Source: Streptomyces sp. NA02950
GTDB lineage: Bacteria > Actinomycetota > Actinomycetes > Streptomycetales > Streptomycetaceae
Length of the DNA stretch: 64,000 nt
Reading direction: 5' to 3'
NCBI RefSeq assembly: GCF_013364155.1
Contig: NZ_CP054916.1
Coordinates: 4,399,001-4,463,000 of the forward strand
Shown: positions 14,165 to 41,405 of the stretch, one piece after another
Layout: every line of letters starts with the position of its first letter
Numbering within the stretch: the first letter of the stretch is position 1
Position numbers and translations under genes: made by a program
Notes under the pieces: model-generated
Database searches by the model: none
The model's input: only the letters and a program-made list of their open reading frames with translations
What the model was told of the DNA's origin: nothing

Positions 14165-14238
14165 GCGGGTGTAGTTTAATGGTAGAACATGAGCTTCCCA
14201 AGCTCAGAGCGCGGGTTCGATTCCCGTCACCCGCTCCA
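14165..14238 (+). tRNA. tRNA-Gly (anticodon CCC)
   Basis: Cloverleaf read by eye: acceptor GCGGGTG pairs with CACCCGC; D-arm GTTTAATGGTAGAAC; anticodon stem TGAGC/GCTCA with loop TTCCCAA (anticodon CCC); T-arm GCGGGTTCGATTCCCGT; discriminator T and encoded CCA (14236-14238). From the anticodon loop on, the 3' half is shared with three further copies at 40131, 41260 and 45824, which mark integration events. The gene itself remains complete because the element restores its 3' end. Confidence 0.96.
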
Positions 14239-14289: not shown

Positions 14290-15447
14290 CTATGCCTCCC
14301 GTGCCCGTTGCGTGCCCGATGGGCTCCGGGCCGCCTCACGCTGTGCCCGCACGCGAGCGTCGAGGGCGGCGGCGATCTCCTTCTGACGGTCGAGGTTGGA
14401 GTGCTGGTAGATCAGCGCGGCCCGCTCGGAGGACTGGCCAGCCCGGACCATGGTGTCCTTGAGCGTTGCCCCGGATTGCGTCGAGAGCGTATGGCCGGTG
14501 TGACGAAGATCGTAGAAACGGAAGTCGTCGGGGAGCCCCACTTTCGCCCGCGCCCGACGCCACTTCCGCCCAAAGGAGGACCGCCGGAACGGTGCCCCCT
14601 TCTCCCCCACGAACAGAAGTCCGTTGGGGTCCTTCTCAGCGAACCACTTCAGATGACGTTCAAGGTCCTTCCGCAGGAAGCCCGGCAGGACGATGAACCG
14701 CTTCCCCGCCTCGGACTTGGTGTCGCCGACCACCCGCCGCCCGGTCGTCAGCTCAGGAGCGGCCCGCCGGACCCAGACGCCGACCGTTTCGAGGTCCACG
14801 TCCGGCCGCCGCAGCTCGGCTTGCTCTTCCGGCCGCGCGGGCCCGTACGCCGCGATGTACACCATGAGGCGCCAGCGGGGCCCGATGGCGTCCGCAAGGG
14901 CGTCCACCTGGTCCACGGTGGCGATGGGCCGCTCAGGAGCCGACTCCTTGCCTGCCCCTCGAATCCGGCACGGGTTGCGGCGGATCAGCTCGTCCTCAAC
15001 CGCGGTTTCCAGGATCGCTTTCACCAGCCGGTACGACTTGGCGACGGTCGTTTCTCCAGTGGCCTTCAGCCGCTCAGCACGCCACGTGCGCACCCTGGGC
15101 GGGGTGATCTCGTCCAGATCCCAGGCTCGGAAGGTGGGCAGGATGTGTAGCCGCAGAAGGCGCCGGTACAGCTCCTCGGTGGTAGCGGAGAGGTCCCGCT
15201 CTTCAACCCACTGCACGGCGTACTCACCGAAGTTGACCGCCCCCGCGTCCGGGTCCTGCCAGTCCCCTTTGCGTACCTCCGTCTGCTGCTCAGCCAACCA
15301 GTCATCCGCCTCCCCGGCCGTGGCGAAGGTGACTGGTGCCGGGCGATCGACCCCATCGGGGGCGAGGTACCGCGCCTGATAGCGGCCGGAGGGCAGCTTG
15401 CGGACACGCCCAAAACGCCGCTTCTTCGTTGGCTTCTTCCTCGGCAT
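14290..15447 (-). CDS. int: Tyrosine site-specific integrase
   Basis: 385 residues. N-terminal arm-binding domain (about 1-65), SAM-like core-binding domain (66-165, with YRRLLRLHILPTF), catalytic domain (175-360). Candidate catalytic residues: Arg205 (GPARPEEQ), Arg315 within YDLRHTGHTL, His319, and nucleophile Tyr347 (ALIYQHSN). The usual first His of the HxLRH box is Tyr here, a variant I have seen in AICE integrases. It joins attP to the tRNA-Gly attB. Its ATG overlaps the stop of xis (TGATG), and its 3' end faces attL 20 bp away, the normal arrangement. Confidence 0.95.
   Translation of the reverse strand: MPRKKPTKKRRFGRVRKLPSGRYQARYLAPDGVDRPAPVTFATAGEADDWLAEQQTEVRKGDWQDPDAGAVNFGEYAVQWVEERDLSATTEELYRRLLRLHILPTFRAWDLDEITPPRVRTWRAERLKATGETTVAKSYRLVKAILETAVEDELIRRNPCRIRGAGKESAPERPIATVDQVDALADAIGPRWRLMVYIAAYGPARPEEQAELRRPDVDLETVGVWVRRAAPELTTGRRVVGDTKSEAGKRFIVLPGFLRKDLERHLKWFAEKDPNGLLFVGEKGAPFRRSSFGRKWRRARAKVGLPDDFRFYDLRHTGHTLSTQSGATLKDTMVRAGQSSERAALIYQHSNLDRQKEIAAALDARVRAQREAARSPSGTQRAREA
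14301..14323. promoter_or_regulatory. Candidate integrase arm-type site, left end
   Basis: Two GTGCCCG units ten bases apart (GTGCCCGTTGC then GTGCCCGATGGG) lie 30 bp inside attL, within the 3' end of int. The same pair occurs inside the right end at 40002-40024. Paired short repeats flanking the core are expected of lambda-type attP arms; binding itself is inferred. Confidence 0.55.
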
Positions 15448-15659
15448 CAGGCAGCCCGCCCAAGGCGACGGCGCCGAGGCTGCACGGGCTGCACAGTGTT
15501 CGCGTCGATGTACTCGCGTATGACGCTCTCCGGGATGCGGACGTGACGGCCCACCTTGACGTACTTGACGCGCCGCTCCGCGATCAGCCGCCGGGGAAAG
15601 CGCTGCGTGGTGCCCAGCAGCTCCGCCACTTGAGCAACGCTGAGATAGCGGTCATGCAT
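15447..15659 (-). CDS. xis: Excisionase (MerR-like helix-turn-helix)
   Basis: 70 residues. Reads MHDRYLSVAQVAELLGTTQR then VKYVKVGRHVRIPESVIREYI, the winged HTH of the excisionase/MerR type that bends DNA at att sites and pushes the integrase toward excision. It overlaps rep at its start (8 bp) and int at its stop (TGATG), so rep, xis and int form one operon, as in pSAM2. Confidence 0.92.
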   Translation of the reverse strand: MHDRYLSVAQVAELLGTTQRFPRRLIAERRVKYVKVGRHVRIPESVIREYIDANTVQPVQPRRRRLGRAA

Positions 15660-17016
15660 GGGTGGGCTCTCCTTCTGTTCCAGTGGCGGGGGTGATGGTG
15701 GCGGTGAGCCATTCTTCGGCGGAGGTGAGGCCGGTTCCGGCGTAGGCCCAGTGGGCGAGGACGAGGGTGGTCTCCTCGTGCTCCAGATCGGCGGCTGCCT
15801 GAGCGCGTCGCCAAGCGGCGCGGGCGTCGCGGAGTGCGCCGAGGGTGGTGGAGTAGCGGCGGGACTTGGTGGAGAAGTGGCCGCGGAAGCCGAGCATGTG
15901 GGCCCAGGCGCGGAGCCGGAGGTGTTCCAGGTCCTTGCGGGCGCCGAGGGCCCATGCGGTGCGGATGAGGCGGCGGGCGTGGTCGGTGATGTCGAGTTGA
16001 GCGATCTCGGCGATGAGGCGTAGCGGCCGGTCCAGGGCTCCGGTCGCGGTCTCAGCGCCCTTGGTGGCGTACTTGGCGATGTAGGCGGCCACGGCCCGGT
16101 CGGTCAGCTCTTGGCCGCCGTTGAGGTCGGCACCTCGGATGGGCCGTACGTCGAGCTGGTTACCGAAGGCGAAGGTGTGGGTCCGGCCGTCGATGACCGG
16201 CCCGGTGACCTCGGCCCTGGTCGCGGCGGCGCGGATGGCGTCGGTCAGCATCTCGACCGTGGCCCAGGCCGGGGGCGAGGTGTCGCCGCCGCCGGGGCCG
16301 TCGAGGCGGATCACGGCATGGAAGTGGACGGCACCGCGCTTCTGGTACTCGGCGACCTTGGCGAAGGACAGCCGGGCGTGATCGCGGAAGGCGCGTTGGG
16401 TGAGCCCGGCCCGCTTGGCGACCTCACGCCGCAGGTAGATCGAGAAGCGGCGCCAGAGCATGCCCGCATGGGCGTTCCAGAGGACGGCGGCTTCGTAGTC
16501 GTAGGTGGTCGGGTTGAGCGGGGTGCCAAGGGCGTCGTCCTCCTGGTCGTGTCGGGTGCCGCAGCGGCACGGGCGGTGGGTACCGGCCGGACCGGTAAGC
16601 CGGTTGTGGACGGGGCCGAAGCTGGGTGCCGTGAAGGTGGCGAAGACGCGCGGATGGCCGGTGACCGTCTCCGGGATGCCCTTGCCGCCACGCAGTCCGG
16701 CGGTGATCAGGTGGAAGGTGTCGCGGCGGTAGGTCTCGGCGCAGGCCGGGCAGCGGGTGGTGCGGCGGTTGTTGCAGCGGACGAGGAGGTGTCCGGCGGG
16801 CAGGTCGGTGGAGTCCAGGTGTCGCAGGACGCGGCCGATCTCGCCGGTTTCCCGGTTCACCTCGTGCTCGGTGCGGTGGCCGTCGAGGCGGATGGGGTTG
16901 GTGCAGCCGCCGAGGCCGGAGAGCTGGCGGAGCAGTGCGGGCATGGTGCCAAGGGCTGCAAGGTTGCCGAGTTGGGGCAGCGGTGGCGGGGTGGTGCGGG
17001 TGATGATGGGTGTCAC
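15652..17016 (-). CDS. RepSA-like replication initiator
   Basis: 454 residues. Cysteine-rich N-terminal part (RCNNRRTTRCPACAETYRRD, and PCRCGTRHD) suggests a zinc-binding module. The centre carries the rolling-circle HUH-type motif GAVHFHAVIRLDG. Further C-terminal is VAAYIAKYATKGAE, typical of RepSA of pSAM2. It should nick the double-strand origin and start rolling-circle replication of the excised circle. The start is at 17016; the ATG is the first in-frame one after a short Pro-rich gap. The gene is first in the rep-xis-int operon. Confidence 0.9.
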   Translation of the reverse strand: MTPIITRTTPPPLPQLGNLAALGTMPALLRQLSGLGGCTNPIRLDGHRTEHEVNRETGEIGRVLRHLDSTDLPAGHLLVRCNNRRTTRCPACAETYRRDTFHLITAGLRGGKGIPETVTGHPRVFATFTAPSFGPVHNRLTGPAGTHRPCRCGTRHDQEDDALGTPLNPTTYDYEAAVLWNAHAGMLWRRFSIYLRREVAKRAGLTQRAFRDHARLSFAKVAEYQKRGAVHFHAVIRLDGPGGGDTSPPAWATVEMLTDAIRAAATRAEVTGPVIDGRTHTFAFGNQLDVRPIRGADLNGGQELTDRAVAAYIAKYATKGAETATGALDRPLRLIAEIAQLDITDHARRLIRTAWALGARKDLEHLRLRAWAHMLGFRGHFSTKSRRYSTTLGALRDARAAWRRAQAAADLEHEETTLVLAHWAYAGTGLTSAEEWLTATITPATGTEGEPTHA

Positions 17017-18966: not shown

Positions 18967-20343
18967 TTACTCGGTGGCCGGGAGCGGCTTGAGCAGCGAC
19001 ACCGGTGCGCTCACCGGAACGGCCGGCACATCGGGCCGGAACGGTTCCAGCGCTGGCAGGTCCGGAACGAGGTGCGCGGTCTCCCGGCAGACTCCGGCAG
19101 CGTCACCGAGCGAGAGATACGGGGTGCGGATGCGGGACCAGCCGCCGGAGGTGTCCCCGGCGACCGCGAGCCCAGGCCGTTCGGGAGCGATGGCGCAGGC
19201 CGCGCCGACCGCTTCGGGGGCGATGTCGCCGAGTGCCATCTTGGCGGAGGCTTCGTCGTTCACGCGGTGGCAGACGCGGCCGGTCAGCTGAGCCCGGAGC
19301 ATCGTGGCGCCCTTGCCCAGTTCGGCGCCGAAGCGCTGTCCGCAGACCTCCAGGTAGATGCCTGCCGCGCGGCCGAGTTGGGCGAGCCGGATGAGCTGGG
19401 TGACCATCTCGTCCCGCCGTTCCTCGTCCTTCCGCGTGGCCACGAGGAACAGCTCGGCCACCTCGTCGACGAGCAGCACCACCGGTACCGGGCGCTCTTC
19501 TTCCGGCAGGCCCCAGATGTCAGAGGTGATCCCTTCATCCGGCGTGCTCGGGGCGATGCCCTGCCGGGCCTTGATCAAGTCGTATCGGTCCTCCATGAGT
19601 TCAATCAGTACCGGCAGCAGGTCAGCCGCCTGTACAGGGTCGGTGGCCAGCGCCGACAGCCGGGGAGCGAACGGCGCCAGCTCCACACCCCTCTTGCAGT
19701 CGATGCCCACCAGCGCGACCCGTTGCCGGGCCAGCCCAGCTATCAGGTGCCGCAGGAACATCGACTTCCCCGACAGCGTCGCGCCCAGGGTGAGCTGGTG
19801 CGGGATGGTCCGGTAGTCGCGCACGAACGGTGTCGCGTCCTCCTTCAGCGCCACCGGCACTTTGAGGAAGCCGCCACCGGACTTCCGTGGCATCCGGACC
19901 TTCCTGAGTACGTCGAAGCCGATCAGCCGCAGTTCGACGACACCGGGCTTCACCACCTCCACGTACACGCCGTGAACTCCCCAGGCGTGCCGCAGCCGTT
20001 CAGCCGAAGCCGCGACATCAGCCGGTTCCTGCCCCGGCGCCAGCCGCAGCCGAACACGCAGCCCGGTCGAGGTCGGGCGGACGAGCCCACGCCGGGGCGG
20101 AACGGGCCGCACTTCCCGGTGGGTGAGCGCCTGCGTCGCCCAAGCCCGCAGCCGGGACGGCGGGACGGTCAGCCCGCAGGCATCCATGACGGATCCGTAC
20201 GAGCCCAGCAGCTTCGCCGTGGAGATCGGCAGGCCGACCGTGGACCAGTACGCGGCCGGATGCCGGGCCCGGAGGTAGGCGGCCCCGCCGACCATTCCGG
20301 CGACCGGGCCACCCACCTCCATCAACGTCAGCACGTCGGCCAT
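18967..20343 (-). CDS. FtsK/SpoIIIE-type DNA translocase (TraB-like transfer protein)
   Basis: 458 residues from the ATG five bases after the preceding gene's stop. Walker A GATLSGKS (about 187-194) and Walker B VVLLVDEVAEL (about 288-298) define the RecA-like motor; the C-terminal part contains GRVCHRVND, typical of this group. A short hydrophobic patch near the N-terminus (GPVAGMVGGAAYL) may touch the membrane. In Streptomyces elements this one protein moves double-stranded plasmid DNA from donor to recipient, without a relaxase. It should assemble as a hexameric pore at the hyphal tip. Family size is normal (450-500). Confidence 0.92.
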   Translation of the reverse strand: MADVLTLMEVGGPVAGMVGGAAYLRARHPAAYWSTVGLPISTAKLLGSYGSVMDACGLTVPPSRLRAWATQALTHREVRPVPPRRGLVRPTSTGLRVRLRLAPGQEPADVAASAERLRHAWGVHGVYVEVVKPGVVELRLIGFDVLRKVRMPRKSGGGFLKVPVALKEDATPFVRDYRTIPHQLTLGATLSGKSMFLRHLIAGLARQRVALVGIDCKRGVELAPFAPRLSALATDPVQAADLLPVLIELMEDRYDLIKARQGIAPSTPDEGITSDIWGLPEEERPVPVVLLVDEVAELFLVATRKDEERRDEMVTQLIRLAQLGRAAGIYLEVCGQRFGAELGKGATMLRAQLTGRVCHRVNDEASAKMALGDIAPEAVGAACAIAPERPGLAVAGDTSGGWSRIRTPYLSLGDAAGVCRETAHLVPDLPALEPFRPDVPAVPVSAPVSLLKPLPATE

Positions 20344-20348
20344 CGGGC

Positions 20349-20702
20349 TCAGACCCCCGCCCCAACGGGCATCTCGGCCGGAGCGATGGCGTCGGCACGG
20401 AAGGCGATCCCGTGCCGCTGCTGCCCGTTGAACACGGTCTCCCACGGCCGGGCGATCAGCCCGATCAGCGTGACCGGCGAACCGAGGGCCAGCCCTTCCG
20501 TCACGCCGCTCTCCGGCACGGTGACCTGAAGCAGCGAGGACTCCCCGCCGTCGATGAAGACGACGCCGAGCCGCATCAGCACCTCACCGCTCTGGGCATC
20601 CTTGGCGATCTCGCCGGTCTGCCGGTCCTTGACCTTCGGCTCCGGCGCCTCAGTCAGCAGGACCGTGGCACCGGAGGTCTCAACGCGGATGGAACGCAAC
20701 AC
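20349..20702 (-). CDS. SCO3933-family regulatory protein
   Basis: About 117 residues from the GTG at 20702, or the adjacent TTG, after AAGGAG. Motifs: VETSGATVLLTEAPEPKVKD, a DRQTGEIAKDAQSG strand-turn, and GLIARPWETVFNGQQRHGIAF. It matches what I remember of the SCO3933 family, which lies directly before traB-type genes in AICEs. The role is probably regulatory or DNA-binding but is not established. The next gene starts five bases after its stop. Confidence 0.78.
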   Translation of the reverse strand: MLRSIRVETSGATVLLTEAPEPKVKDRQTGEIAKDAQSGEVLMRLGVVFIDGGESSLLQVTVPESGVTEGLALGSPVTLIGLIARPWETVFNGQQRHGIAFRADAIAPAEMPVGAGV

Positions 20703-22942: not shown

Positions 22943-23346
22943 GTTACAACCTTCTCTACGGGTTCAAGGCGCCGCGCAAGCGCGGCGCGCGCGGCCCGGC
23001 GGCGCGGGCCGCCGCTCATGTCTCCGCCCCGCTCCGGCCCGACCGCCGGACCGCGCGCCAGCAGCAAGCACCTTGCTGAGGAGAAGGGGTACGTCGTGGC
23101 TGAGGGTCGGCTCCACGGCTTTAGGCACCTCCCCGGTCCGGGTCCCGCGTCGGGCAAGGCCAGGGGGCCACTCGTGCTAATTGCGGGCAGGTCCAAAGCC
23201 TGCCCGAGTTGCCAACCAGCGTACGGCCCCCTGACCATGCCCGACCCCAGACCGGGCAGGCCACCGCCCAAACCCGCTCCACCGACTGCGGTGACGGGAT
23301 CCTCTCTACTCGAGTACCTGTCAGCGAGGACCTTTACGCTTCCCTC
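22943..23346. other. 404-bp non-coding region with strong hairpins
   Basis: No supported gene. A perfect 9-bp hairpin GCGCCGCGC-AA-GCGCGGCGC lies at 22969-22988 and could end the preceding operon. A second perfect stem CGGGCAGG/CCTGCCCG lies at 23184-23206. The only long non-coding stretch in the AICE backbone, it is a candidate for a cis-acting site (origin or transfer locus), but no repeat set was found to prove it. Confidence 0.45.
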
Positions 23347-23596
23347 ATGCCTGAAGGTCGACCCGCCCTTCCTGCCGAGCTTCGACGGCGTGTCCTAGTT
23401 GAAGCCGGGCACCGCTGTGCCATCCCGACATGCCGTCGCCACCCAGTGGACATCGAGCACATCGACGACTGGGCGACAGTTCGCGAGCATCGGTTCGAGA
23501 ACCTGATCGCCCTCTGCCCCACGTGTCATCGCCGCAAGGGGAGCGGACCGGATCAGATCGACAAGAAGTCTCTACGGCAGTACAAGATCAACCTAG
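23347..23596 (+). pseudogene. HNH endonuclease gene, first segment (N-terminal 83 codons)
   Basis: Reads MPEGRPALPAELRRRVLVEA, then the zinc/HNH core: RCAIPTCRRHPVDIEHIDDW and ENLIALCPTCHRRKG. The four cysteines and the His/Asn/His set make a normal HNH nuclease centre. After KSLRQYKINL the frame is broken by an IS1380-type end at 23597. Joining this part to 32871-32911 and 38697-38924 gives one uninterrupted frame of 172 codons. The truncated product still holds the full HNH core and would gain a short foreign tail ending at 23658. Confidence 0.88.
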
Positions 23597-25257
23597 CCTC
23601 GCGCTTTCACGAGGCGGGCTGTCCGACTGGTGATCAAGAAAGCAGAAAGTGCCTCTGACCAGCGAGAATGAGGATTGCTGAGGTCCTTGTTCCCGCCACC
23701 GCCGGAGGCACTTTCCAGGTGAAGAAGCGTATCGGGTCCTACCCGCGTGTCCGCGTCGAGGGCGGCGGTCGTGGGGTCGTCTCGCAGGCCGGGGCCGTGC
23801 TGCTGGTCGAGACGATCCGCAAGTCCGGTCTCGACACGGCGATATCGGCGGCGCTTGAGCCGTGGCGGAAGGCCCGGGCGGTGCACGATCCGGGCAAGAT
23901 CCTGCTGGATGTCGCGCTCGCGGTGGCACTCGGCGGGGACTGCCTGGCCGACGTGGGCTTGCTGCGGGCTGAGCCGGCCGTGTTCGGGCCGGTAGCCTCC
24001 GACCCCACGGTCTCCCGGCTGATCAACACGCTGGCGTCGGGCGGACAGCGGGTCCTGGCAGCACTGCGCACCGCCCGTGCTGAAGTACGCGAACGCGTAT
24101 GGCGGTTGGCCGGTGAAGCAGCGCCGGACACGGGCGGGCAGGTGATCGTGGACATCGACGGCGTCCTCGTCCTGGCCCACTCCGAGAAGCAGGACGCAGC
24201 CGCGACCTGGAAGAAGACGTTCGGCCACCACCCGCTGATGGGATTCGTCGACCACGGCCGCAGCGGGTCCGGCGAGCCGGTCGTGGGCCTGCTGCGGCCC
24301 GGCAACGCGGGCTCCAACACCGCCGCCGACCACATCGAGGCCACCAGACTGGCCCTGGCCCAGTTGCCGAAACGGCTCCGGCGCGGCCGGCAGACGCTGA
24401 TCCGTACCGACTCCGGCGGAGGCACCCACGAGTTCGTCGCCTGGCTCGCCCGGCGCGGAAGGTGGCTGTCGTACTCGGTCGGCATGACCATCACCGACGC
24501 CATCCACCAGGCCGTCCTGAAGGTCCCGGCCTCGGCCTGGACACCGGCCGTCGAACCCGACGGCGACATCCGCGACGGCGCCTGGGTTGCCGAACTCGGC
24601 GGCGACTGCCTGACCGGCTGGCCCAACGGGCTGCGGCTGATCGTGCGGAAGGAACGGCCGCACCCCGGTGCCCAGTTGCGCTTCACCGACGCCGACGGCA
24701 TGCGGTTGACCTGCTTTGCCACCAACACAGCGGGCGAGGCGATCGCCGCCCTTGAACTGCGCCACCGCCAGCGTGCCCGTGCTGAGGACCGCATCCGCGC
24801 CGCCCGCGCCACCGGCCTGCGCAACCTTCCCCACCATGGCGCCGCACAGAACCAGATCTGGCTGGAGATCGTCCAGATCGCCCTGGACCTGCTGGCCTGG
24901 ATGCCCCTGCTCGCTCTCACCGGCAAGGCCCGCCTGTGGGAGCCCCGCCGCCTTCGGCTTCGGCTGTTCTCCGCCGCCGCGCAGCTCATCACCACCGGCC
25001 GCCGCCGCTACCTCCGCCTGGCCAGGCACTGGCCCTGGGCCGACGTGATCAGCGATGCCCTGGACCGGCTCCGCGTCCTCCCGAACCCCGGCTGACCGGC
25101 ACGTTCCCGTCCCTGCGAGCAGCACCACCCCCGACCGGAGCCGTGGAACCCGGCGCCCACCCGACGCGACAACCGGGCCGTCAGCCTGCCCAGACGCCGA
25201 AACCCCCACCCCAAAGAGTCCGCCAGCAAACTGACGACCCCTCATGAACGATCGAGG
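23597..25257 (+). mobile_element. IS1380-family element, copy 1
   Basis: Ends are CCTCG...CGAGG, 1661 bp, with CTAG on both sides. One transposase gene. It differs from copy 2 at only about three bases, so the copies are recent. Confidence 0.88.
23668..25095 (+). CDS. IS1380-family transposase
   Basis: 475 residues. DDE-type (IS4-like superfamily) enzyme: first Asp in VDIDGVLVLAHSEKQ, second in LIRTDSGGGTHEF, and a Glu in RAEDRIRAARATGLRNLP. The stretch SVGMTITDAIHQAVLKVP is typical of this family. Full family length and no defect, so it is probably active and can mobilise both copies. The ATG lies 71 bp inside the left end. Confidence 0.93.
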   Translation: MRIAEVLVPATAGGTFQVKKRIGSYPRVRVEGGGRGVVSQAGAVLLVETIRKSGLDTAISAALEPWRKARAVHDPGKILLDVALAVALGGDCLADVGLLRAEPAVFGPVASDPTVSRLINTLASGGQRVLAALRTARAEVRERVWRLAGEAAPDTGGQVIVDIDGVLVLAHSEKQDAAATWKKTFGHHPLMGFVDHGRSGSGEPVVGLLRPGNAGSNTAADHIEATRLALAQLPKRLRRGRQTLIRTDSGGGTHEFVAWLARRGRWLSYSVGMTITDAIHQAVLKVPASAWTPAVEPDGDIRDGAWVAELGGDCLTGWPNGLRLIVRKERPHPGAQLRFTDADGMRLTCFATNTAGEAIAALELRHRQRARAEDRIRAARATGLRNLPHHGAAQNQIWLEIVQIALDLLAWMPLLALTGKARLWEPRRLRLRLFSAAAQLITTGRRRYLRLARHWPWADVISDALDRLRVLPNPG

Positions 25258-25261
25258 CTAG

Positions 25262-25476
25262 GGCATACAGGGCAATACGCCTAGATCAAATGCCCTCTGA
25301 GAACTCACAGAGGCAGGGTGCGCCCCGGTGTGGGGTCCGACGGCTGAAGGTCTTCGGCCTGCGTCGAGGGCAGGACGAATTTTGCGAATGCCCGACGCTG
25401 CCTCTGCTGGTTGGTTAGCTTGTTGATCCATCTGCGCAATCCCGTGAAGGGCGGGGCTGCGAGAGGAGGGGGAACT
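25262..25476. other. Upstream region of the Trypco1 operon
   Basis: 215 bp between the IS and the first cargo gene. No supported gene. It should hold the cargo promoter; GCGAGAGGAGGGGGAACT just before 25477 is a strong ribosome site. A minus-strand frame of about 57 codons here has no ribosome site. Confidence 0.45.
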
Positions 25477-25815
25477 GTGCGTGTTCTCGCGCGACTTCTG
25501 TTGGAGGACGGGGGCTCGATTCTGGTCGAGACTCCCGAGACGCCTGAGGTGTCGGACGGGCCTGTGAAGGCGGGCCGGGTCGGCGAGGTGATCCAGGATC
25601 TGCCGCTGACCGTGCGGGAGAAGCTCCGTCCGGTGACGGACCTGGCGCGAACGGCTCTGGAACAGCTGCGGCAGGCGGGTCCGGACGAGGTCGAGATCGA
25701 GTTCGGGGTGGATCTGGCGGCGCAGGCAGGTGCTGTGATCGCCAAGAGTGAGGTGGGTTGCCACCTGAAGGTGACCGTAGCCTGGCGCAGCGCGTCCGGC
25801 GACAACGCCCACTGA
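25477..25815 (+). CDS. Trypco1-type protein (CU044_2847 family)
   Basis: 112 residues from GTG after GAGGAGGGGG. Reads VRVLARLLLEDGGSILVETP, then VIQDLPLTVREKLRPVTDLA, and ends with a beta-rich part (EVEIEFGVDLAAQAGAVIAK, HLKVTVAWRS). The EIEFGV.L.A..G..IA pattern is the hallmark I remember for the CU044_2847/Trypco1 family, named for co-occurring with trypsin-like peptidases in bacterial conflict systems. It is probably a substrate, adaptor or effector of the peptidase encoded 69 bp downstream in the same direction. No membrane segment or enzyme motif is visible. Confidence 0.82.
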   Translation: MRVLARLLLEDGGSILVETPETPEVSDGPVKAGRVGEVIQDLPLTVREKLRPVTDLARTALEQLRQAGPDEVEIEFGVDLAAQAGAVIAKSEVGCHLKVTVAWRSASGDNAH

Positions 25816-25884
25816 GATCCGCGGCGAGCGGGATACCGCGGCAGTGAGTACGGATGCGGGTCACAGGGCGGACGGAGGTCAGGC

Positions 25885-28800
25885 ATGAAGTCGGGGGTGG
25901 CCCGAATCCAGTCCCGCCGGGGTGAAACGGTCGGGGCCGGTTTCCTGATCGGTGACGATGCGGTGGTCACCTGCGCTCACGTGCTGAGGGCCGGCGGATA
26001 CGGTCCGGGCGACCGGGTACGGATCGTCTTCCCTCATGCGCAAGGGGCACCGTGGGTTGAAGGCGATGTCCCGGCCGAATCCTGGCGCGACCCGGAAGCC
26101 GAGGACGTCGCAGTCGTCCGGCTGAGGGAGACCCCGGGCGCAGCGCAGGTGCTGGAACTCGGTTCCGCTGCCGGTTGCCGGGGACACGCGGTGCGCTCGT
26201 TCGGCTTTCCCGGCCAGGCACCCCCCGGGGGCCATTTCGGCTATGCGGTGGCCGGTGACCTACTGCCCGACGACGGCACGGACGGCCTGCTGCAGCTGAC
26301 CGGGGCCAATGACCTGACCCGGGGATTCAGTGGGGGTCCGGTCGTCGACGACGTCACCGGCCTGGTGATCGGCATGGTCACCGCCATCACCGCAGCCGAC
26401 GAGCACCTTCGCGGCCAGGGCATCGCCTACGCAACGCCCACCCAAGCCCTGCGCCGGATCCGGCCCGGGGCCGTTGAGCATGCCGTGTCCCCCTACCGCG
26501 GCCTGGAACCGTTCACGAGCGAGCAAGCGGCGTGGTTCCACGGCCGCGACATCGCTGTCGACACGGTTCTCACGGCGTTGGCCGGGCAGCGGCGGGCACT
26601 TCTGCTGCTGGGCCCCTCCGGATCGGGTAAGTCCTCCCTCGTCCAAGCCGGTGTCCTCCCCGCTCTGGCCGGTGGGCGGTTGCCTGGGAGCGACCGGTGG
26701 CGTCCCGTCGTCGTCCGCCCCGGAGAACACCTGCCCACTGCGCTGGAACGCCATGGGTTACCCGGTGCCGCGGCCGACGGGATCACCGCCGCTGCTCGGC
26801 AGCGGGTCAACGGAGACACCCTGTGTGATCGTCTGGTCCTGGTCATCGACCAGTTCGAGGAGATCCTGAGCGGCCCGGCCGCCGTCCCGTCACCCTTGCC
26901 TCCCGCCCAGACGGCCCCATCCGGCGGGGAGGCGTCCGTGACTGCGACCGAGCAGATCACCGAGCTGATCCGGTCACCTGTACCGGCCGTGGTGATCATC
27001 ATCATGCGGGACGACTTCTACCCTCGTATGGCCGCCGAAGCCCCGCAACTGCTGGAAGCCGCCTCGCCGGGCCTGGTCAACGTGCCTGCCACCCTGAGTC
27101 AGCAGGACCTGCACGCCATCATCACCCACCCCGCCCGGGCGGCCGGCCTGCGTCTCGAATCCGGACTCACCGAACGGATCATCGCCGACGTCCTGGCCGC
27201 CGACCTCCGTGGCACTCCCGCCCGGGCAGCACCCGTCACCGCACTCGTCCCCCTGCAACTGACGCTGCGCCAGCTGTGGGAGCGCCGTGACGACGGCTGC
27301 CTCACACACACCGCCTACGAGCACATCGGACAGATCAACGGAACTCTCACCACCTGGTGCAACACCGCCCTCGACCGGTTGCCCACCGCCCAACGGACCA
27401 CCGCACGTCGTCTCCTCACCGCCCTGGTACGGCCCGCAGACCCCGTCCGACGCATCCCCGCCATCCGCCAGCAGGTCCCACTCGACGTGTTGCGCGACCT
27501 CGCCTCCGGCTCCTCCCGGACCTCGCCAAGACCGCCTGCCTCCGAGCCCGCCGACCAGACGACGGACGCGGTCCTGGCTGCACTCACCCGGCACAGGATC
27601 ATCACCACCCACGCCCGCGACCCAGGGCCCCCACCTGTGGGCGTGGTGGCCGAACTCGCCCACGACACCTTGACCCAGGACTGGGGCGAGTTGCGTGACT
27701 GGGTGGCCGAAGACCAGCAATTCCACACATGGCTGCACCGAGCCGAGGAACAACGCGCCCGCTGGGCCCGACGCCACGACCCTGAGGACCTCCTGCACGG
27801 CACCGCCCTGGCCGACGGCCTGGACTGGTCCCACCAGCGCGGACTGCCCGGCCCCGTCGCGGACTTCCTCGAAGCAAGCCACCACAACCAGAAGGCGGCG
27901 CTGCGTCGTACCAAGCGCATCAACCTCATTCTGATCGGGGCCCTTGTCCTGGCCCTGATCGCCACGGGTCTGGCCTTGTGGCAACGTCAGACCGCTGTCG
28001 CTGCTCAGCAGATCGCCCTGTCCCGACAACTCGCCGCTCAGTCCCAGGGCCTCACCGACACCGATCCCGATCTGGCCTCCCTGCTCGCCGTACAGGCATA
28101 TCGGACTCACCCCACGGCAGCCGCCGCCCTTGCCCTCTACTCTGCAGCCAGCCTCCCCCTCCGGCACCGCCTCACGGGCCACCACGACGGTGTGACCTCG
28201 GTGGCATACAGCCCCGACGGCCGCACCCTCGCCACCGGGAGCGAAGACGGCTCGGCGAAACTGTGGAACGCCGCCACCGGCCACCTGCGCACCACACTCA
28301 CGGGCCACCACGACGGTGTGACCTCGGTGGCATACGACCCCGACGGCCGCACCCTCGCCACCGGGAGCGAAGACGGCTCGGCGAAACTGTGGAACGCCGC
28401 CACCGGCCACCTGCGCACCACACTCACGGGCCACCACGACGGTGTGACCTCGGTGGCATACAGCCCCGACGGCCGCACCCTCGCCACCGGGAGCGAAGAC
28501 GGCTCGGCGAAACTGTGGAACGCCGCCACCGGCCACCTGCGCACCACACTCACGGGCCACCACGACGGTGTGACCTCGGTGGCATACAGCCCCGACGGCC
28601 GCACCCTCGCCACCGGGAGCGAAGACGGCTCGGCGAAACTGTGGAACGCCGCCACCGGCCACCTGCGCACCACACTCACGGGCCACCACGACGGTGTGAC
28701 CTCGGTGGCATACAGCCCCGACGGCCGCACCCTCGCCACCGGGAGCGAAGACGGCTCGGCGAAACTGTGGAACACCGCCACCGGCCACCTGCGCACCACT

Positions 28801-30054
28801 CCGGCCAGCCACAGCAACGGCGTGACGTCGGTGGTGTTCAGCCCCGACGGCCACACCCTCGCCACCGGCGACAAGGACCATTGGGTCCGCTTGTGGGCCC
28901 TTTCCACCGCAACCGGCGACACCACCCTGACCGGTGTCCTTCGCAACACTGTCACGGGCCACAGCGACGGCGTGAGCTCCGTGGTGTTCAGCCCCGACGG
29001 CCACACCCTCGCCACCGCAAGCGAAGACCGAACAGCACGCCTCTCGGACATCGCAGTAGGTCACACACGCACCACACTCACCGGTCACACGGGCTCCGTC
29101 ATGTCGGTGGCGTTCAGTCCGGACGGCCGCACCGTTGCCACCGGCGGCTGGGACGGCACGGCTCGGCTGTGGGACACCGCCACCGGCCGCCTGCGCACCG
29201 TCCTCACGGACCACGTGAAGTACGTCTTGTCGGTGGCGTTCAGCCCGGACGGCCATACCCTCGCCACCGCGAACGACGACGGCACGGCGAAGCTGTGGGA
29301 CATCGGCACCGGCCGCCTGCGCACCACACTCACCGGCCACAGCGACGGCCTGTGGTCGGTGGCGTTCAGCCCGGACGGCCATACCCTCGCCACCGGCGGC
29401 ATCGACCGTACGGCGAAGCTGTGGGACACCGGCACCGGCCGCCTGCGCACCACACTCACCGGCCACAGCGACGGCCTGTGGTCGGTGGCGTTCAGCCCGG
29501 ACGGCCATACCCTCGCCACCGCAAGCGAAGACCGTACGGCGAAGCTGTGGGACACCGGCACCGGCCGCCTGCGCACCACACTCACCGGCCACAGCGACGG
29601 CGTGACCTCCGTGGCGTTCAGCCCCGACGGCCATACCCTCGCCACCGGCGGCATCGACCGTACGGCGAAGCTGTGGGACACCGGCACCGGCCGCCTGCGC
29701 ACCACACTCACCGGCCACAGCGACGGCGTGACCTCCGTGGCGTTCAGCCCCGACGGCCACACCCTCGCCACCGCGAGCAACGACGGCACGGCGAAACTGT
29801 GGGATGTCGCCGCCGGAGGCACCCGCACCACTCTCACAGGCCATGTCGGCTACGTGACCTCTGTGGCGTTCAGCCCCGGTGGCCATGGCCTGGCCACCGG
29901 CGGGATCGATCGCAGGGCAAGACTGTGGGAGGTCGCTCTACCCGGCCAGACCGATGCCATCAGGAGAATCTGTAGGGCCGTCCACCGAAACTTCACCGCA
30001 CAAGAGCGAGCGACGTACCTCTCGGGTCGGCCGGAATACACCTGTGCTCCGTGA
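25885..30054 (+). CDS. Trypsin-like peptidase - STAND NTPase - 14 WD40 repeats (conflict-system receptor)
   Basis: 1389 residues. Residues 1-195: trypsin-like serine peptidase with an intact triad, His32 (VTCAHVL), Asp74 (EDVAVVRL) and Ser149 (GFSGGPV). Residues 203-660: nSTAND-type NTPase beginning SPYRGLEPFTSEQ, Walker A GPSGSGKSS (243-251), Walker B LVIDQFEE (319-326). A hydrophobic span follows at about 679-701 (LILIGALVLALIATGLALW). From about 763 to the end are 14 WD40 repeats of 42 residues, two seven-bladed propellers by count. Repeats 1-5 are nearly identical in DNA. Such proteins are thought to sense an invader through the WD40 part, oligomerise with NTP, and release peptidase activity. 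Codon 292 is TTA (26758-26760), which in Streptomyces makes translation depend on bldA tRNA. Confidence 0.93.
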   Translation: MKSGVARIQSRRGETVGAGFLIGDDAVVTCAHVLRAGGYGPGDRVRIVFPHAQGAPWVEGDVPAESWRDPEAEDVAVVRLRETPGAAQVLELGSAAGCRGHAVRSFGFPGQAPPGGHFGYAVAGDLLPDDGTDGLLQLTGANDLTRGFSGGPVVDDVTGLVIGMVTAITAADEHLRGQGIAYATPTQALRRIRPGAVEHAVSPYRGLEPFTSEQAAWFHGRDIAVDTVLTALAGQRRALLLLGPSGSGKSSLVQAGVLPALAGGRLPGSDRWRPVVVRPGEHLPTALERHGLPGAAADGITAAARQRVNGDTLCDRLVLVIDQFEEILSGPAAVPSPLPPAQTAPSGGEASVTATEQITELIRSPVPAVVIIIMRDDFYPRMAAEAPQLLEAASPGLVNVPATLSQQDLHAIITHPARAAGLRLESGLTERIIADVLAADLRGTPARAAPVTALVPLQLTLRQLWERRDDGCLTHTAYEHIGQINGTLTTWCNTALDRLPTAQRTTARRLLTALVRPADPVRRIPAIRQQVPLDVLRDLASGSSRTSPRPPASEPADQTTDAVLAALTRHRIITTHARDPGPPPVGVVAELAHDTLTQDWGELRDWVAEDQQFHTWLHRAEEQRARWARRHDPEDLLHGTALADGLDWSHQRGLPGPVADFLEASHHNQKAALRRTKRINLILIGALVLALIATGLALWQRQTAVAAQQIALSRQLAAQSQGLTDTDPDLASLLAVQAYRTHPTAAAALALYSAASLPLRHRLTGHHDGVTSVAYSPDGRTLATGSEDGSAKLWNAATGHLRTTLTGHHDGVTSVAYDPDGRTLATGSEDGSAKLWNAATGHLRTTLTGHHDGVTSVAYSPDGRTLATGSEDGSAKLWNAATGHLRTTLTGHHDGVTSVAYSPDGRTLATGSEDGSAKLWNAATGHLRTTLTGHHDGVTSVAYSPDGRTLATGSEDGSAKLWNTATGHLRTTPASHSNGVTSVVFSPDGHTLATGDKDHWVRLWALSTATGDTTLTGVLRNTVTGHSDGVSSVVFSPDGHTLATASEDRTARLSDIAVGHTRTTLTGHTGSVMSVAFSPDGRTVATGGWDGTARLWDTATGRLRTVLTDHVKYVLSVAFSPDGHTLATANDDGTAKLWDIGTGRLRTTLTGHSDGLWSVAFSPDGHTLATGGIDRTAKLWDTGTGRLRTTLTGHSDGLWSVAFSPDGHTLATASEDRTAKLWDTGTGRLRTTLTGHSDGVTSVAFSPDGHTLATGGIDRTAKLWDTGTGRLRTTLTGHSDGVTSVAFSPDGHTLATASNDGTAKLWDVAAGGTRTTLTGHVGYVTSVAFSPGGHGLATGGIDRRARLWEVALPGQTDAIRRICRAVHRNFTAQERATYLSGRPEYTCAP
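28171..28800 (+). repeat. Five near-identical 126-bp WD40 units
   Basis: Units start at 28171, 28297, 28423, 28549 and 28675 (each CTCACGGGCCACCACGACGG). Differences are a TACAGC to TACGAC change in unit 2 and a few bases at the unit edges, including AACGCC to AACACC in unit 5. The reading frame is kept because 126 is a multiple of three. Confidence 0.95.
29329..29832 (+). repeat. Second block of four similar 126-bp WD40 units
   Basis: Units start at 29329, 29455, 29581 and 29707 (each CTCACCGGCCACAGCGACGG). They alternate GLW/GVT and GGID/ASED variants in the blade, as if shuffled as pairs. Less uniform than the first block. Confidence 0.85.
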
Positions 30055-30315
30055 GAGGGGGAGATGGGGGTCCTGCTCGCCGTGCAGCAGTCGTGGCGAA
30101 CGTTGATGGGTGCGGCTCGGTTCGTAGGAGTCCCGGATCGCGGAGCTGACGGGGAGGCTGGAGGTGGAGCGGGAGGCGTGGTCGCGGTTGCGGGTGACCT
30201 GGGAGACGGTCGCCGAGGTGCTCGCCGAGATCTCCCAGGCCGGTGCACCGGTCGGCCGCCGCAGGAGGCGATGGCTGCGGAGGAGTCATCGCAGCCGGCC
30301 GCATCCGGCGCAGAA

Positions 30316-30612
30316 GCCCTCACAGCGGCAGGATGGTCCGGTCCCGCCAACTACGACAACGACACGGCGAAGTTCTCCGCGATCGTCGGCGACTGGGAGA
30401 ACCGGTTCGGTGCCCGTGTCGTCGCGGTCGGCTTCTCCCCCCTGCACCTCAGCGTTGCAGCCCCACCCACAGCTGAAGAGGACGCCCTCCTGGTCGCTGC
30501 TGAGCACTTCGCCTTCTGCCCTGACAACATCTGGCAAGGCAGACGGCCGTACACACTGGCCGCGTACGCTGAGCGGCTCAATCCACAGGAAAGGACCAGC
30601 TCAGCAGCCTGA
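30316..30612 (+). pseudogene. DUF4253 C-terminal fragment
   Basis: Reads GWSGPANYDNDTAKFSAIVG, then VVAVGFSPLHLSVAAPPTAE and AAEHFAFCPDNIWQG, the end of DUF4253-type proteins. The 5' part is missing; before it (30131-30270) is a different fragment with VEREAWSRLRVTWETVAEVL, which looks like an IS accessory protein. It is part of the debris behind the STAND gene. Confidence 0.65.
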
Positions 30613-31057
30613 TCGGAATATTGACACCCTTCAGGTGCAGCAGGCGCGGAATCTCACCGCCGATTTGGGCATACGCATCGACTCCCTGCACTTCTTGTTA
30701 CGCGGCCGCGATGGCAAGTACGGCGAAGCCTTCGACGCCGTCTTCCAGGCCGAGGAAATGGAGATCCTCAACAGTGCGCCACAGGCTCCCCGCATGAACG
30801 CGCACTGCGAACGCATCATCGGCAGCATCCGACACGAAGCCCTCGACCACATCCTCATCATGAACGAGGCCCACGCCCGCCACGTCCTCGCGGCCTACGA
30901 GCAGCACTACAACGAACACCGACCTCACCAGGCCCGCAACCAGCTACCACCCGACGCCCACGAACAACCCGCTGCGATGCACAGCCTCAGCACCGGCAAA
31001 GTCCTGCGCACCCGGATCCTCGGCGGCCTCATCAACGAGTACAGATACGCGGCATGA
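30611..31057 (+). pseudogene. Integrase-core (rve) transposase, C-terminal fragment
   Basis: Reads LHFLLRGRDGKYGEAFDAVF, then PRMNAHCERIIGSIRHEALD and YNEHRPHQARNQLPP, ending in GGLINEYRYAA and a stop. This is the end of an IS481/IS3-like integrase-core transposase, with the second Asp and catalytic Glu regions. The N-terminal part is absent, so it is inactive. Confidence 0.85.
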
Positions 31058-31062
31058 CATAC

Positions 31063-31203
31063 AGCGATGACTTTTCGAGCGGCACAGGGTCGCGGTGCCA
31101 GCGCAGGACCGTGTCCGGCGAGACGATGAGCGGTAGCTGGCGTGCCCGGCGGGAGAGCATGGAGGAGGGCAGCCAGCAGCGCACGGTCCAGCCGGGTGAG
31201 CTT
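31063..31203 (-). pseudogene. Transposase N-terminal fragment, frameshifted
   Basis: The minus strand reads KLTRLDRALLAALL in one frame and LPLIVSPDTVLRWHRD in another, the N-terminal part of the same kind of integrase-core transposase as the fragment to its left. It is cut by the left end of IS1380 copy 2. Confidence 0.65.
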
Positions 31204-31205
31204 AG

Positions 31206-32866
31206 CCTCGCGCTTTCACGAGGCGGGCTGTCCGACTGGTGATCAAGAAAGCAGAAAGTGCCTCTGACCAGCGAGAATGAAAATTGCTGAGGTCCTTGTT
31301 CCCGCCACCGCCGGAGGCACTTTCCAGGTGAAGAAGCGTATCGGGTCCTACCCGCGTGTCCGCGTCGAGGGCGGCGGTCGTGGGGTCGTCTCGCAGGCCG
31401 GGGCCGTGCTGCTGGTCGAGACGATCCGCAAGTCCGGTCTCGACACGGCGATATCGGCGGCGCTTGAGCCGTGGCGGAAGGCCCGGGCGGTGCACGATCC
31501 GGGCAAGATCCTGCTGGATGTCGCGCTCGCGGTGGCACTCGGCGGGGACTGCCTGGCCGACGTGGGCTTGCTGCGGGCTGAGCCGGCCGTGTTCGGGCCG
31601 GTAGCCTCCGACCCCACGGTCTCCCGGCTGATCAACACGCTGGCGTCGGGCGGACAGCGGGTCCTGGCAGCACTGCGCACCGCCCGTGCTGAAGTACGCG
31701 AACGCGTATGGCGGTTGGCCGGTGAAGCAGCGCCGGACACGGGCGGGCAGGTGATCGTGGACATCGACGGCGTCCTCGTCCTGGCCCACTCCGAGAAGCA
31801 GGACGCAGCCGCGACCTGGAAGAAGACGTTCGGCCACCACCCGCTGATGGGATTCGTCGACCACGGCCGCAGCGGGTCCGGCGAGCCGGTCGTGGGCCTG
31901 CTGCGGCCCGGCAACGCGGGCTCCAACACCGCCGCCGACCACATCGAGGCCACCAGACTGGCCCTGGCCCAGTTGCCGAAACGGCTCCGGCGCGGCCGGC
32001 AGACGCTGATCCGTACCGACTCCGGCGGAGGCACCCACGAGTTCGTCGCCTGGCTCGCCCGGCGCGGAAGGTGGCTGTCGTACTCGGTCGGCATGACCAT
32101 CACCGACGCCATCCACCAGGCCGTCCTGAAGGTCCCGGCCTCGGCCTGGACACCGGCCGTCGAACCCGACGGCGACATCCGCGACGGCGCCTGGGTTGCC
32201 GAACTCGGCGGCGACTGCCTGACCGGCTGGCCCAACGGGCTGCGGCTGATCGTGCGGAAGGAACGGCCGCACCCCGGTGCCCAGTTGCGCTTCACCGACG
32301 CCGACGGCATGCGGTTGACCTGCTTTGCCACCAACACAGCGGGCGAGGCGATCGCCGCCCTTGAACTGCGCCACCGCCAGCGTGCCCGTGCTGAGGACCG
32401 CATCCGCGCCGCCCGCGCCACCGGCCTGCGCAACCTTCCCCACCACGGCGCCGCACAGAACCAGATCTGGCTGGAGATCGTCCAGATCGCCCTGGACCTG
32501 CTGGCCTGGATGCCCCTGCTCGCTCTCACCGGCAAGGCCCGCCTGTGGGAGCCCCGCCGCCTTCGGCTTCGGCTGTTCTCCGCCGCCGCGCAGCTCATCA
32601 CCACCGGCCGCCGCCGCTACCTCCGCCTGGCCAGGCACTGGCCCTGGGCCGACGTGATCAGCGATGCCCTGGACCGGCTCCGCGTCCTCCCGAACCCCGG
32701 CTGACCGGCACGTTCCCGTCCCTGCGAGCAGCACCACCCCCGACCGGAGCCGTGGAACCCGGCGCCCACCCGACGCGACAACCGGGCCGTCAGCCTGCCC
32801 AGACGCCGAAACCCCCACCCCAAAGAGTCCGCCAGCAAACTGACGACCCCTCATGAACGATCGAGG
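31206..32866 (+). mobile_element. IS1380-family element, copy 2
   Basis: 1661 bp, same ends as copy 1. Left flank is TTAG, right flank CTAG; the right one matches the far-left flank of copy 1. The transposase start region reads ATGAAAATT instead of ATGAGGATT, and one silent change occurs near 32446. Confidence 0.88.
31277..32704 (+). CDS. IS1380-family transposase, second copy
   Basis: 475 residues; differs from the first copy only at residue 2 (Lys for Arg). All catalytic residues are kept. Either transposase could act on both IS copies and so on the composite unit. Confidence 0.92.
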   Translation: MKIAEVLVPATAGGTFQVKKRIGSYPRVRVEGGGRGVVSQAGAVLLVETIRKSGLDTAISAALEPWRKARAVHDPGKILLDVALAVALGGDCLADVGLLRAEPAVFGPVASDPTVSRLINTLASGGQRVLAALRTARAEVRERVWRLAGEAAPDTGGQVIVDIDGVLVLAHSEKQDAAATWKKTFGHHPLMGFVDHGRSGSGEPVVGLLRPGNAGSNTAADHIEATRLALAQLPKRLRRGRQTLIRTDSGGGTHEFVAWLARRGRWLSYSVGMTITDAIHQAVLKVPASAWTPAVEPDGDIRDGAWVAELGGDCLTGWPNGLRLIVRKERPHPGAQLRFTDADGMRLTCFATNTAGEAIAALELRHRQRARAEDRIRAARATGLRNLPHHGAAQNQIWLEIVQIALDLLAWMPLLALTGKARLWEPRRLRLRLFSAAAQLITTGRRRYLRLARHWPWADVISDALDRLRVLPNPG

Positions 32867-32870
32867 CTAG

Positions 32871-32911
32871 GCATCCTGAACCACCGATACGGCGATACAG
32901 AACGGCGCCTA
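32871..32911 (+). pseudogene. HNH endonuclease gene, middle segment
   Basis: 41 bp between the composite transposon and the IS701/IS630 cluster. In the frame carried over from 23347-23596 it reads GILNHRYGDTERRL, which fits what I remember of HNH proteins after the YKxNL motif. It ends at the TA used by the IS630 element. Confidence 0.8.
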
Positions 32912-40130: not shown

Positions 40131-40206
40131 TTCCCAAGCTCAGAGCGCGGGTTCGATTCCCGTCACCCGCTCCAGACAGAAGCCCCAGGCCAGCGGCCCG
40201 GGGCTT
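40131..40206. repeat. attR: attR of the AICE (76-bp direct repeat)
   Basis: Identical to 14195-14270, covering the tRNA-Gly 3' half and its terminator. Upstream of it is element DNA, so no tRNA can form here. Confidence 0.92.
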
Positions 40207-40411
40207 CTTCGTTGCCCGGGGCCGCTGGGGTCTCTGTCAACCCGTGACGACTACCAAGAGCCAGCACAACGCGATCACACCTGAGCCAAAGCGATCGAGA
40301 CGCGTCGGGTGTTGTGTGGCTGACGAGGTGCGGGCGTAGGCTCAACCCAGCGTCCGCAACAACGGCCAGGCTCACGATGATCACGCAGACCGCCGCGCAG
40401 GAGACGTTCCG

Positions 40412-40765
40412 ATGACCGAGCAGCCCTCTGCCCCCGACGGGCCCCTGATCCCCATGCCGGCACTCACTCCGGCAGCGCTCCGCGCAGCGGTCGCCCAGAT
40501 CGCCCCCGCCCAGCTGCCGTCTTTTGTCGAACACCTCGACCGCGCGGTCGAACAAGCCGCCACGCAGAGCACTATCGCTCCGCTGCGTACCTTCCTGCTG
40601 TGGTGGGGAGAATTCGTAGCCATCCAGCGCTATCCCGCGCGAGCGGCCCGCCTGCGTGAACTGGAAACCGTGGCGGAAGAGGCAACGGACCGCGAGGCCC
40701 TGCGTTCCGTACTCGCCGAGATGCGACAGATCACAGACCTGGCGCAGCGCGAGATCTCCGCGTGA
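40412..40765 (+). CDS. DUF6247-family protein, possible antitoxin
   Basis: 117 residues, ATG after GCAGGAGACG. Starts MTEQPSAPDGPLIPMPALTP, then ALRAAVAQIAPAQLPSFVEH and TFLLWWGEFVAIQRYPARAA, which is the DUF6247 pattern as I remember it. Helical throughout. Its stop overlaps the GTG of a small partner gene (GTGA), a typical toxin-antitoxin arrangement with the antitoxin first. Found in the first accretion island right of the AICE. Confidence 0.72.
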   Translation: MTEQPSAPDGPLIPMPALTPAALRAAVAQIAPAQLPSFVEHLDRAVEQAATQSTIAPLRTFLLWWGEFVAIQRYPARAARLRELETVAEEATDREALRSVLAEMRQITDLAQREISA

Positions 40766-41398: not shown

Positions 41399-41405
41399 TC
41401 GACTC

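Follow-up and report, generated by a model that had tools for sequence, protein, structure and literature searches.

A Trypco1 and trypsin-nSTAND1-WD40 gene pair on a composite transposon of Streptomyces sp. NA02950, with a predicted outward-facing sensor

Whether a bacterial receptor of the STAND type looks into the cell or out of it, and what the small gene beside it contributes, are the questions raised by a two-gene module in a chromosomal stretch of Streptomyces sp. NA02950 (64,000 nucleotides, NZ_CP054916.1, positions 4,399,001 to 4,463,000; hereafter, the window). The module consists of a small Trypco1 gene and a large gene whose product joins a trypsin-like peptidase, an nSTAND1 nucleoside triphosphatase (NTPase) domain and 14 WD40 repeats. 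STAND sensors of bacteria are usually treated as intracellular alarms. In this study, the domains, relatives and genomic setting of the module were analysed. The module is clearly a member of large, already named families that are common in Streptomyces, and its new element is a predicted outward-facing sensor supported by conservation. We read the two genes as an operon that may encode a membrane-anchored protease receptor, similar to the nucleotide-binding leucine-rich repeat (NLR) receptors, together with a small partner, and about half of our confidence is placed in this reading.

The original prediction, made from the letters and translations of the window, placed the module at 25477-30054; these limits proved exact, with the two genes at 25477-25815 and 25885-30054, and the length of 1389 residues for the large protein was confirmed. 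The genes are separated by 69 bp, and the small open reading frame (ORF) begins with GTG at 25477, preceded by an AGGAGG-containing stretch. Profile searches bore out the proposed Trypco1 identity (PF19493, 84.1 bits against a cut-off of 24.6; the NCBIfam name is CU044_2847 family), the STAND assignment (nSTAND1, 269.2 bits against 27.1, residues 203-633) and the WD40 repeats (Pfam, 539.8 bits over 14 stretches), and no trypsin family was found among the 25 of 59 Pfam families listed for the large protein. Relatives of the large protein were collected by scoring the 7,980 candidates that shared most words; 1,702 passed, and counts out of 120 below refer to the best 120 of these 1,702, in which most named proteins are from Streptomyces. 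The predicted intact catalytic triad was found in all of them, with His32, Asp74 and Ser149 identical in 120/120, and the Walker A motif GPSGSGKSS and the DQFEE stretch are conserved as well.

Since only 25 of the 59 Pfam families were listed, the trypsin assignment is based on the triad, on weak matches to PADLOC RT-Protease_XI (31.7 bits) and NCBIfam degP_htrA (19.6 bits, below the cut-off of 416), and on PF13365 or a trypsin-like name carried by many of the 120 homologs. The order of the triad and a GxSGGP motif place the domain in the trypsin-like serine peptidase class, with predicted catalysis; Gly151 is kept in 99/120 homologs. Asp is present six residues before Ser149 in 116/120 (Asp143 in the window protein), and from this spacing it may correspond to chymotrypsin position 189. 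A profile search of the PDB gave one weak solved relative of the trypsin stretch, an extracellular serine protease (E 0.005), and no match below E 0.4 for the nSTAND1 stretch, and PADLOC returned only weak matches for the module.

The evidence for the position of the sensor lies between and behind the annotated domains. In 120/120 homologs, the strongest hydrophobic 19-mer is situated between nSTAND1 and WD40, with a Kyte-Doolittle mean of 1.77-2.75 (2.58 in the window protein). More lysine and arginine residues occur on the STAND side of this segment in 119 homologs, and the numbers are equal in one; in the window protein, five such residues are present in the 15 positions before the best 19-mer and two in the 15 after it. 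By hydropathy, a single-pass topology is thus predicted, with one transmembrane helix at the junction of NTPase and sensor that follows the positive-inside rule. Two cysteines about 25 residues apart follow the last repeat in 106 of the 107 complete homologs, the sole exception (P0110) being without both. The remaining 13 of the 120 were set aside for this count: eleven end no more than 21 residues past the last detected repeat, and P0090 and P0109 have no detected repeats. Because of the helix in 120/120, the positive-inside charge in 119/120 and the tail cysteines in 106/107, the sensor is most likely outside the membrane. The original prediction, whose families, Trypco1-protease pairing, transposon and integrative element all stood, had overlooked this helix, the tail cysteines and a second copy of the module. 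The helix is also unmentioned in the available parts of PMC7159879, PMC10907252, PMC8195603, PMC5587647, PMC12799240, PMC13236601, PMC1805685 and PMC4986451, a body of literature mostly without subscription journals and preprints.

The same architecture was found well beyond the close homologs. In the genus loci L016-L034, the helix is present in 19/19 and the tail pair is visible in 13; the other six reach the end of the stretch or contig, or have an in-frame stop (L025). As an outgroup, 31 distant nSTAND1 loci were used, taken among the matches listed from a contig scan with two general Walker-type words, and including actinobacteria, cyanobacteria, Chloroflexi and Bacteroidia. A 19-mer scoring at least 1.6 follows the NTPase in 25/31; the helix is present in 18 of the 19 loci that contain three or more WD40 repeats, and 16 of them also have at least two tail cysteines. 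A control set of 109 further WD40 proteins (120 listed minus eleven already seen) gave the helix together with the cysteine pair in 35/35 trypsin-nSTAND1 proteins, 24/33 other nSTAND1 proteins and 1/41 proteins without nSTAND1. We tentatively propose that nSTAND1-WD40 proteins form a cross-phylum class of outward-looking NLR-like receptors, with a disulphide-capped propeller outside, a cytosolic STAND switch and a swappable effector, which in the Trypco1 branch would be a protease with Trypco1 as its target or cofactor. Separately, 7 of the 12 distant loci with fewer than three WD40 repeats (L070, L062 and others) have a hydrophobic helix after the NTPase, and some end in an FGS-like part by eye; the lectin-fold sensors of nSTAND1 proteins may also be outside.

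For the WD40 part, the structure prediction is of high confidence (predicted local distance difference test, pLDDT, 90.7) and shows 14 blades with two helices behind them. At the DNA level, repeats 1-5 of the window protein are 96-100% identical, and 14 repeats were detected in 69/107 complete homologs, which is consistent with two closed seven-bladed propellers. The nearest PDB structure is 2ymu, a highly repetitive propeller, with Apaf-1 at rank 5, and a designed seven-bladed propeller, taken over its own extent, matched with a TM-score of 0.99; the relative placement of the two WD40 halves is unmatched in the PDB, because whole-length TM-scores were only about 0.4. Differences between close repeats concentrate at repeat positions 8, 10, 26 and 28, where the ratio of nonsynonymous to synonymous differences per site (pN/pS) is 1.69 versus 0.70 elsewhere, and this set has the top pN among all 111,930 four-position sets; the data are 43 non-independent pairs from 6 of 17 genes, in some of which the repeat finder missed most repeats. 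These four positions lie on either side of conserved sites, as do the corresponding four selected codons in the fungal HET-D/HET-E proteins (PMC1805685, available part).

These propellers could also work on the other side of the membrane. Phage proteins are recognised within the cell by the Avs proteins that have been studied, which counts for a membrane-tethered cytosolic sensor: its helix would enter the membrane partway or rest along it, and its propellers, inside the cell, would sense intracellular phage products. Apaf-1, which is among the closest folds of the WD40 part, provides a further precedent, as it uses its WD40 repeats to detect cytochrome c in the cell interior (PMC7159879, available part). 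The strong hydropathy with positive-inside charge in 119/120, the conserved cysteine pair and the occurrence of the same domain order in loci of several phyla argue against such an arrangement, and we consider it unlikely, at about half the weight given to the membrane-spanning receptor.

The second question concerns the small gene. Thirty loci were taken through the N-terminal part of the large protein, of which 28, including the window locus (L118), were trypsin-bearing by a custom profile. The pairing claimed for the module recurs in these genomes: Trypco1 lies directly upstream in 20/28 trypsin-bearing loci (window locus counted; 14/16 among close relatives) and directly downstream of the trypsin-STAND gene in three more (L135, L137 and L138). 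In plasmids, Trypco1 stands just upstream in 7/7 trypsin-nSTAND1 matches, with 14 Trypco1-bearing plasmid records in all. Trypco1 was found in 0/9 trypsin-less Streptomyces nSTAND1 loci (one of which, L029, stops at a contig end) and in 0/31 distant nSTAND1 loci with a profile built from close Streptomyces sequences. As this profile recovers 51 of the 55 loci that Pfam calls Trypco1, absence from distant loci is weak evidence. Since Trypco1 is present beside trypsin loci and was found in none of these nine and 31 other nSTAND1 loci, it tracks the protease and not the NTPase. Viewed from the small gene, a trypsin of this subtype is present within 1.5 kb in 37/55 Trypco1 loci. In the loci displayed, trypsins with Asp six residues before the catalytic Ser149 in an AND/ELT..GFSG stretch pair with GPVxAG-type Trypco1, and the partners of the remaining trypsin subtypes carry different Trypco1 motifs, a correspondence that could reflect common descent of the operons and not contact. 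Trypco1 comes after the trypsin-STAND gene in L199, L200 and L201 (G121:C33, G038:C2 and G117:C1), and at G046:C198:17903-30196 (L182 and L187), two trypsin-STAND-WD40 genes in opposite orientation have a single Trypco1 match between them.

Trypco1 carries the motif GPVKAGR at residues 28-34, in which G28, P29 and R34 are kept in 120/120 and K31 in 109/120 sequences, and the peptidase may dock at this loop or cut it. Rather than being the substrate, the protein may assist the peptidase as a chaperone or cofactor, or inhibit it, which we regard as almost an even possibility. Its length of only 112 residues with no other Pfam domain over cut-off, the low confidence of its most conserved loop in the model, and a third Trypco1 in this genome with no trypsin detected within 1.5 kb all favour such a role; the upstream position, which mirrors the cleaved pro-nuclease of the Avs1 and Hachiman systems, speaks for a substrate, as do the basic loop residues, which would suit the Asp before Ser149 if this were the S1 residue. 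The third copy is distant (L006:8009-8665, G000:C1 ~2206000; Pfam 70 bits, missed by the custom profile), and its adjoining ORFs resemble, by eye, a methyltransferase and an ATP-grasp protein. When the PDB was searched with a Trypco1 profile, only chance-level matches appeared, and no tested function for Trypco1 is reported in the available parts of the open-access conflict-system literature consulted.

Several observations weigh against a membrane-spanning receptor with an external sensor and a dedicated Trypco1 partner. The helix was called by a hydropathy score and not by a trained predictor, and a second hydrophobic 19-mer of at least 1.6 is present in 77/120 homologs, corresponding in the window protein to the trypsin core (residues 153-171). 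The tail cysteine pair goes with nSTAND1 and not with any upstream helix: among WD40 proteins that have a hydrophobic segment but no nSTAND1, 28 of 29 lack the pair. The share of differences at the four variable repeat positions is the same (0.36) in six WD40 proteins that have no nSTAND1, so that variability of the top face is not specific to the family, and the variable positions support a recognition face in general rather than one peculiar to these proteins. In L119, L121 and L128 (3/20 upstream cases), Trypco1 is divided between two frames, and 5/28 trypsin loci are without a full Trypco1 on either side: L133, L134, L136 and L140 have none in the stretches examined, and L122 has only a 22-bit piece upstream. 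Conversely, 18/55 Trypco1 loci are without a trypsin of this subtype within 1.5 kb. The AlphaFold2 model of Trypco1 (50 sequences) is poor (pLDDT 58.3; predicted template modelling score, pTM, 0.43), and Foldseek gave no match at E <= 0.001 with it; for both reasons no fold is assigned. The low cysteine density of the WD40 region in the listed homologs (0.65 per 1000, against 6.80 in the N-terminal part) may be due to taxon or to repeat homogenisation.

Two candidate arguments were dropped. Cysteine depletion as a sign of export was given up because, in a comparison in which taxon was not controlled, helix-bearing proteins without nSTAND1 are not low: their WD40 regions have 6.1 cysteines per 1000 with an upstream hydrophobic segment and 7.4 without one, and the other nSTAND1 proteins have 1.1 with the segment and 5.5 in the three without. 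Low density is no general mark of a preceding helix, so only the tail cysteines are used, and weakly. Diversifying selection specific to the family is likewise not claimed, given 43 non-independent pairs and the same share in non-nSTAND1 proteins.

In the mechanism that we propose, the large protein would be oriented with the N-terminus inside and the C-terminus outside, so that protease and NTPase would be cytosolic, the propellers external and the tail closed by a disulphide. A ligand would bind the variable top face of the propellers; the freed NTPase would load ATP and cluster; clustering would switch on the peptidase; and the peptidase would act on or with Trypco1. Most likely, the triggered compartment would then stop growing or die, as happens in anti-phage systems of the trypsin-STAND type; an immunity role for the module is plausible.

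An external sensor suits signalling as well as defence, and the module could instead be a regulatory or developmental receptor that reads an extracellular or envelope signal in hyphal life, with the protease switching a regulator. Its abundance is in keeping with this: the whole large protein was matched at 1e-60 in 93/150 Streptomyces genomes, many matches being WD40 or nSTAND1 only, and Trypco1 is present in 117/150 genomes of the genus (16/148 in genomes drawn across the class). Of two plasmid loci inspected in detail, one has no named defence gene beside the module, and the other has a DNA cytosine methyltransferase and a VWA protein nearby; apart from the two module genes, the annotated neighbours differ between them, in agreement with the earlier claim that the unit is self-contained. 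On the other side, the module is unevenly distributed, can occur several times in one genome, has mobile copies, combines homogenised repeats with a top face that varies, and is found on plasmids and on an integrative element, all of which is more typical of conflict systems; we rate a purely regulatory receptor as improbable, though not strikingly so. Among phages, tblastn gave one distant match, over the nSTAND1 part, and a scan of viral contigs gave no relative.

The genomic setting agrees with the prediction of a composite transposon within an integrative element (Table 1). Two direct copies of an IS1380 insertion sequence (IS) flank the module, and the outer CTAG at 23593-23596 matches that at 32867-32870; the interrupted HNH frame resumes on the right flank. 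A second copy of the repeated stretch lies 3.1 Mb away on the same chromosome, where the right IS1380 has TTAG on both sides and no left IS is next to the module. Of the four mismatches between the copies, three fall in the right IS, two where its transposase gene begins and one close to its right end, and the fourth falls in the adjoining 4-mer; the frames of both module copies are intact, with no differences inside the two genes. In the simplest reading, the second locus is the older one, an IS1380 landed at a CTAG upstream of the module, and the composite then transposed to its place in the window; if an IS already stood there, recombination through it would be expected to give the same 4-mers. 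The genome has eight full-length IS1380 copies that are nearly identical, and these, together with the two identical module copies, would suit a module that is carried passively with no selected function here. This seems very improbable to us, as both copies are intact and identical within the two genes, and the 120 homologs show little or no change in the triad and Walker motifs. With one of two identical copies in an integrative element, the genome offers a natural deletion or transfer experiment.

Table 1 Coordinates of features in the window
Feature	Position	Strand	Details
tRNA-Gly(ccc), likely attachment site	14165..14238	+	last 28 nt recur exactly at 40147, 41276, 45840
Tyrosine integrase	14290..15447	-	beside tRNA-Gly
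RepSA replication initiator, pSAM2 type	15652..17016	-	PF20199, 511 bits
FtsK/SpoIIIE-family protein, likely transfer protein	18967..20445	-	gene of the integrative element
HNH-endonuclease ORF interrupted by composite transposon	23209..23658	+	break at CTAG 23593-23596
Left IS1380 copy	23597..25257	+	transposase 23668-25095; CTAG at 23593-23596 and 25258-25261
Repeated stretch, 7,614 bp	25258..32871		second copy G000:C1 7,550,206-7,557,819 (L004:4207-11820), 4 mismatches
Trypco1 gene	25477..25815	+	112 aa; PF19493 84.1 bits; NF041216 65.3 bits
Large gene	25885..30054	+	1389 aa: trypsin-like peptidase, nSTAND1, predicted transmembrane helix, 14 WD40, two-cysteine tail
Trypsin-like peptidase domain	25912..26469	+	approx. 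residues 10-195; triad His32, Asp74, Ser149
nSTAND1 NTPase domain	26491..27783	+	residues 203-633
Predicted transmembrane helix	27919..27981	+	residues ~679-699
14 WD40 repeats	28168..29955	+	spacing 126 nt, one step of 150 nt
C-terminal helical tail	29956..30051	+	Cys1363, Cys1387
DUF4253 ORF, passenger in mobile unit behind large gene	30064..30612	+	97.3 bits
Passenger ORF with integrase-core (rve_3) stretch at its end	30164..31057	+	Pfam
Right IS1380 copy	31206..32866	+	transposase 31277-32704; TTAG to left, CTAG 32867-32870 to right

The integrase at the tRNA-Gly gene, the RepSA initiator, the FtsK-family gene and the repeated tRNA end accord with the integrative element claimed for this region; a GntR regulator and a NUDIX gene are also present. 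The gene content fits a pSAM2-like actinomycete integrative and conjugative element. The exact copies of the 28-nt tRNA-Gly end within 40147-45867 may mean that integrative elements accumulated in tandem past the first repeat. Behind the composite transposon, three IS701-type transposase ORFs (32942-34351, 34482-35891 and 37187-38596) have identical protein sequences. Upstream of the second copy (G000:C1 7546000-7565000, L004), the stretch 2603-4207 carries an ORF that by eye looks like the reverse transcriptase of a group II intron, and Rfam reports a group II intron (RF00029, 45.7 bits) at L004:3962-4062, about 145 bp from the left end of that copy.

If the propellers are outside, these proteins would be cell-surface receptors coupled to an NLR-type switch, and the search for triggers would shift from intracellular phage products to particles, envelope damage or neighbours outside; nSTAND1-WD40 receptors would then detect phages, predators or neighbours while these were still on the outside, at the surface of the cell. 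PknD-type receptor kinases have a comparable layout, with a cytosolic enzyme, one transmembrane helix and an extracellular beta-propeller, although their enzyme is a kinase and not a STAND protein or protease. Comparison with conflict systems was made against the available parts of the papers cited here. In AVAST type 1 (Avs1a/Avs1b) and HamMAB (PMC12799240), the partner is a pro-nuclease of the metallo-beta-lactamase fold, whereas the gene upstream in our module is Trypco1, and the Avs1b profile gave the large protein 13.2 bits against a cut-off of 1500. The nSTAND1 conflict NTPases (PMC8195603, PMC10907252) share the NTPase clade and include trypsin among their N-terminal effectors; the sensors described there have FGS/CLec lectin folds, with no mention of a helix between nSTAND1 and sensor in those parts, whereas the module has WD40. 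The CARD-NLR system LypABC (PMC13236601) likewise uses a trypsin-like peptidase and an NLR-like ATPase, in cell lysis, but its domains are split over several proteins with TPR-like repeats, whereas the module has one protein with WD40. In the NACHT-WD40 proteins HET-D/HET-E of Podospora (PMC1805685), WD40 repeats are homogenised as in the module, and variable pairs flank conserved sites at 7/9 and 25/27, compared with 8/10 and 26/28 here; their repeat number is highly variable, whereas the module family has nSTAND1 in place of NACHT and a 14-repeat array in the majority of complete homologs. Close printed relatives of the gene pair are the Trypco1-trypsin pairs of the VMAP/vWA-MoxR systems (Kaur et al. 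2020, PMC7159879), prevalent in multicellular bacteria, in which Trypco1 also adjoins a trypsin-like peptidase; in the module the peptidase is fused to nSTAND1, the helix and WD40, and no MoxR, vWA or VMAP family was found among the scanned ORFs of the mobile unit, which therefore lacks the composition of the ternary system. The same paper describes EACC1-caspase systems at the membrane, some of them with an extracellular binding domain; they use a caspase instead of a trypsin, their helix belongs to EACC1 or to some of the caspase proteins, and their existence in print provides a precedent for the membrane location of such systems.

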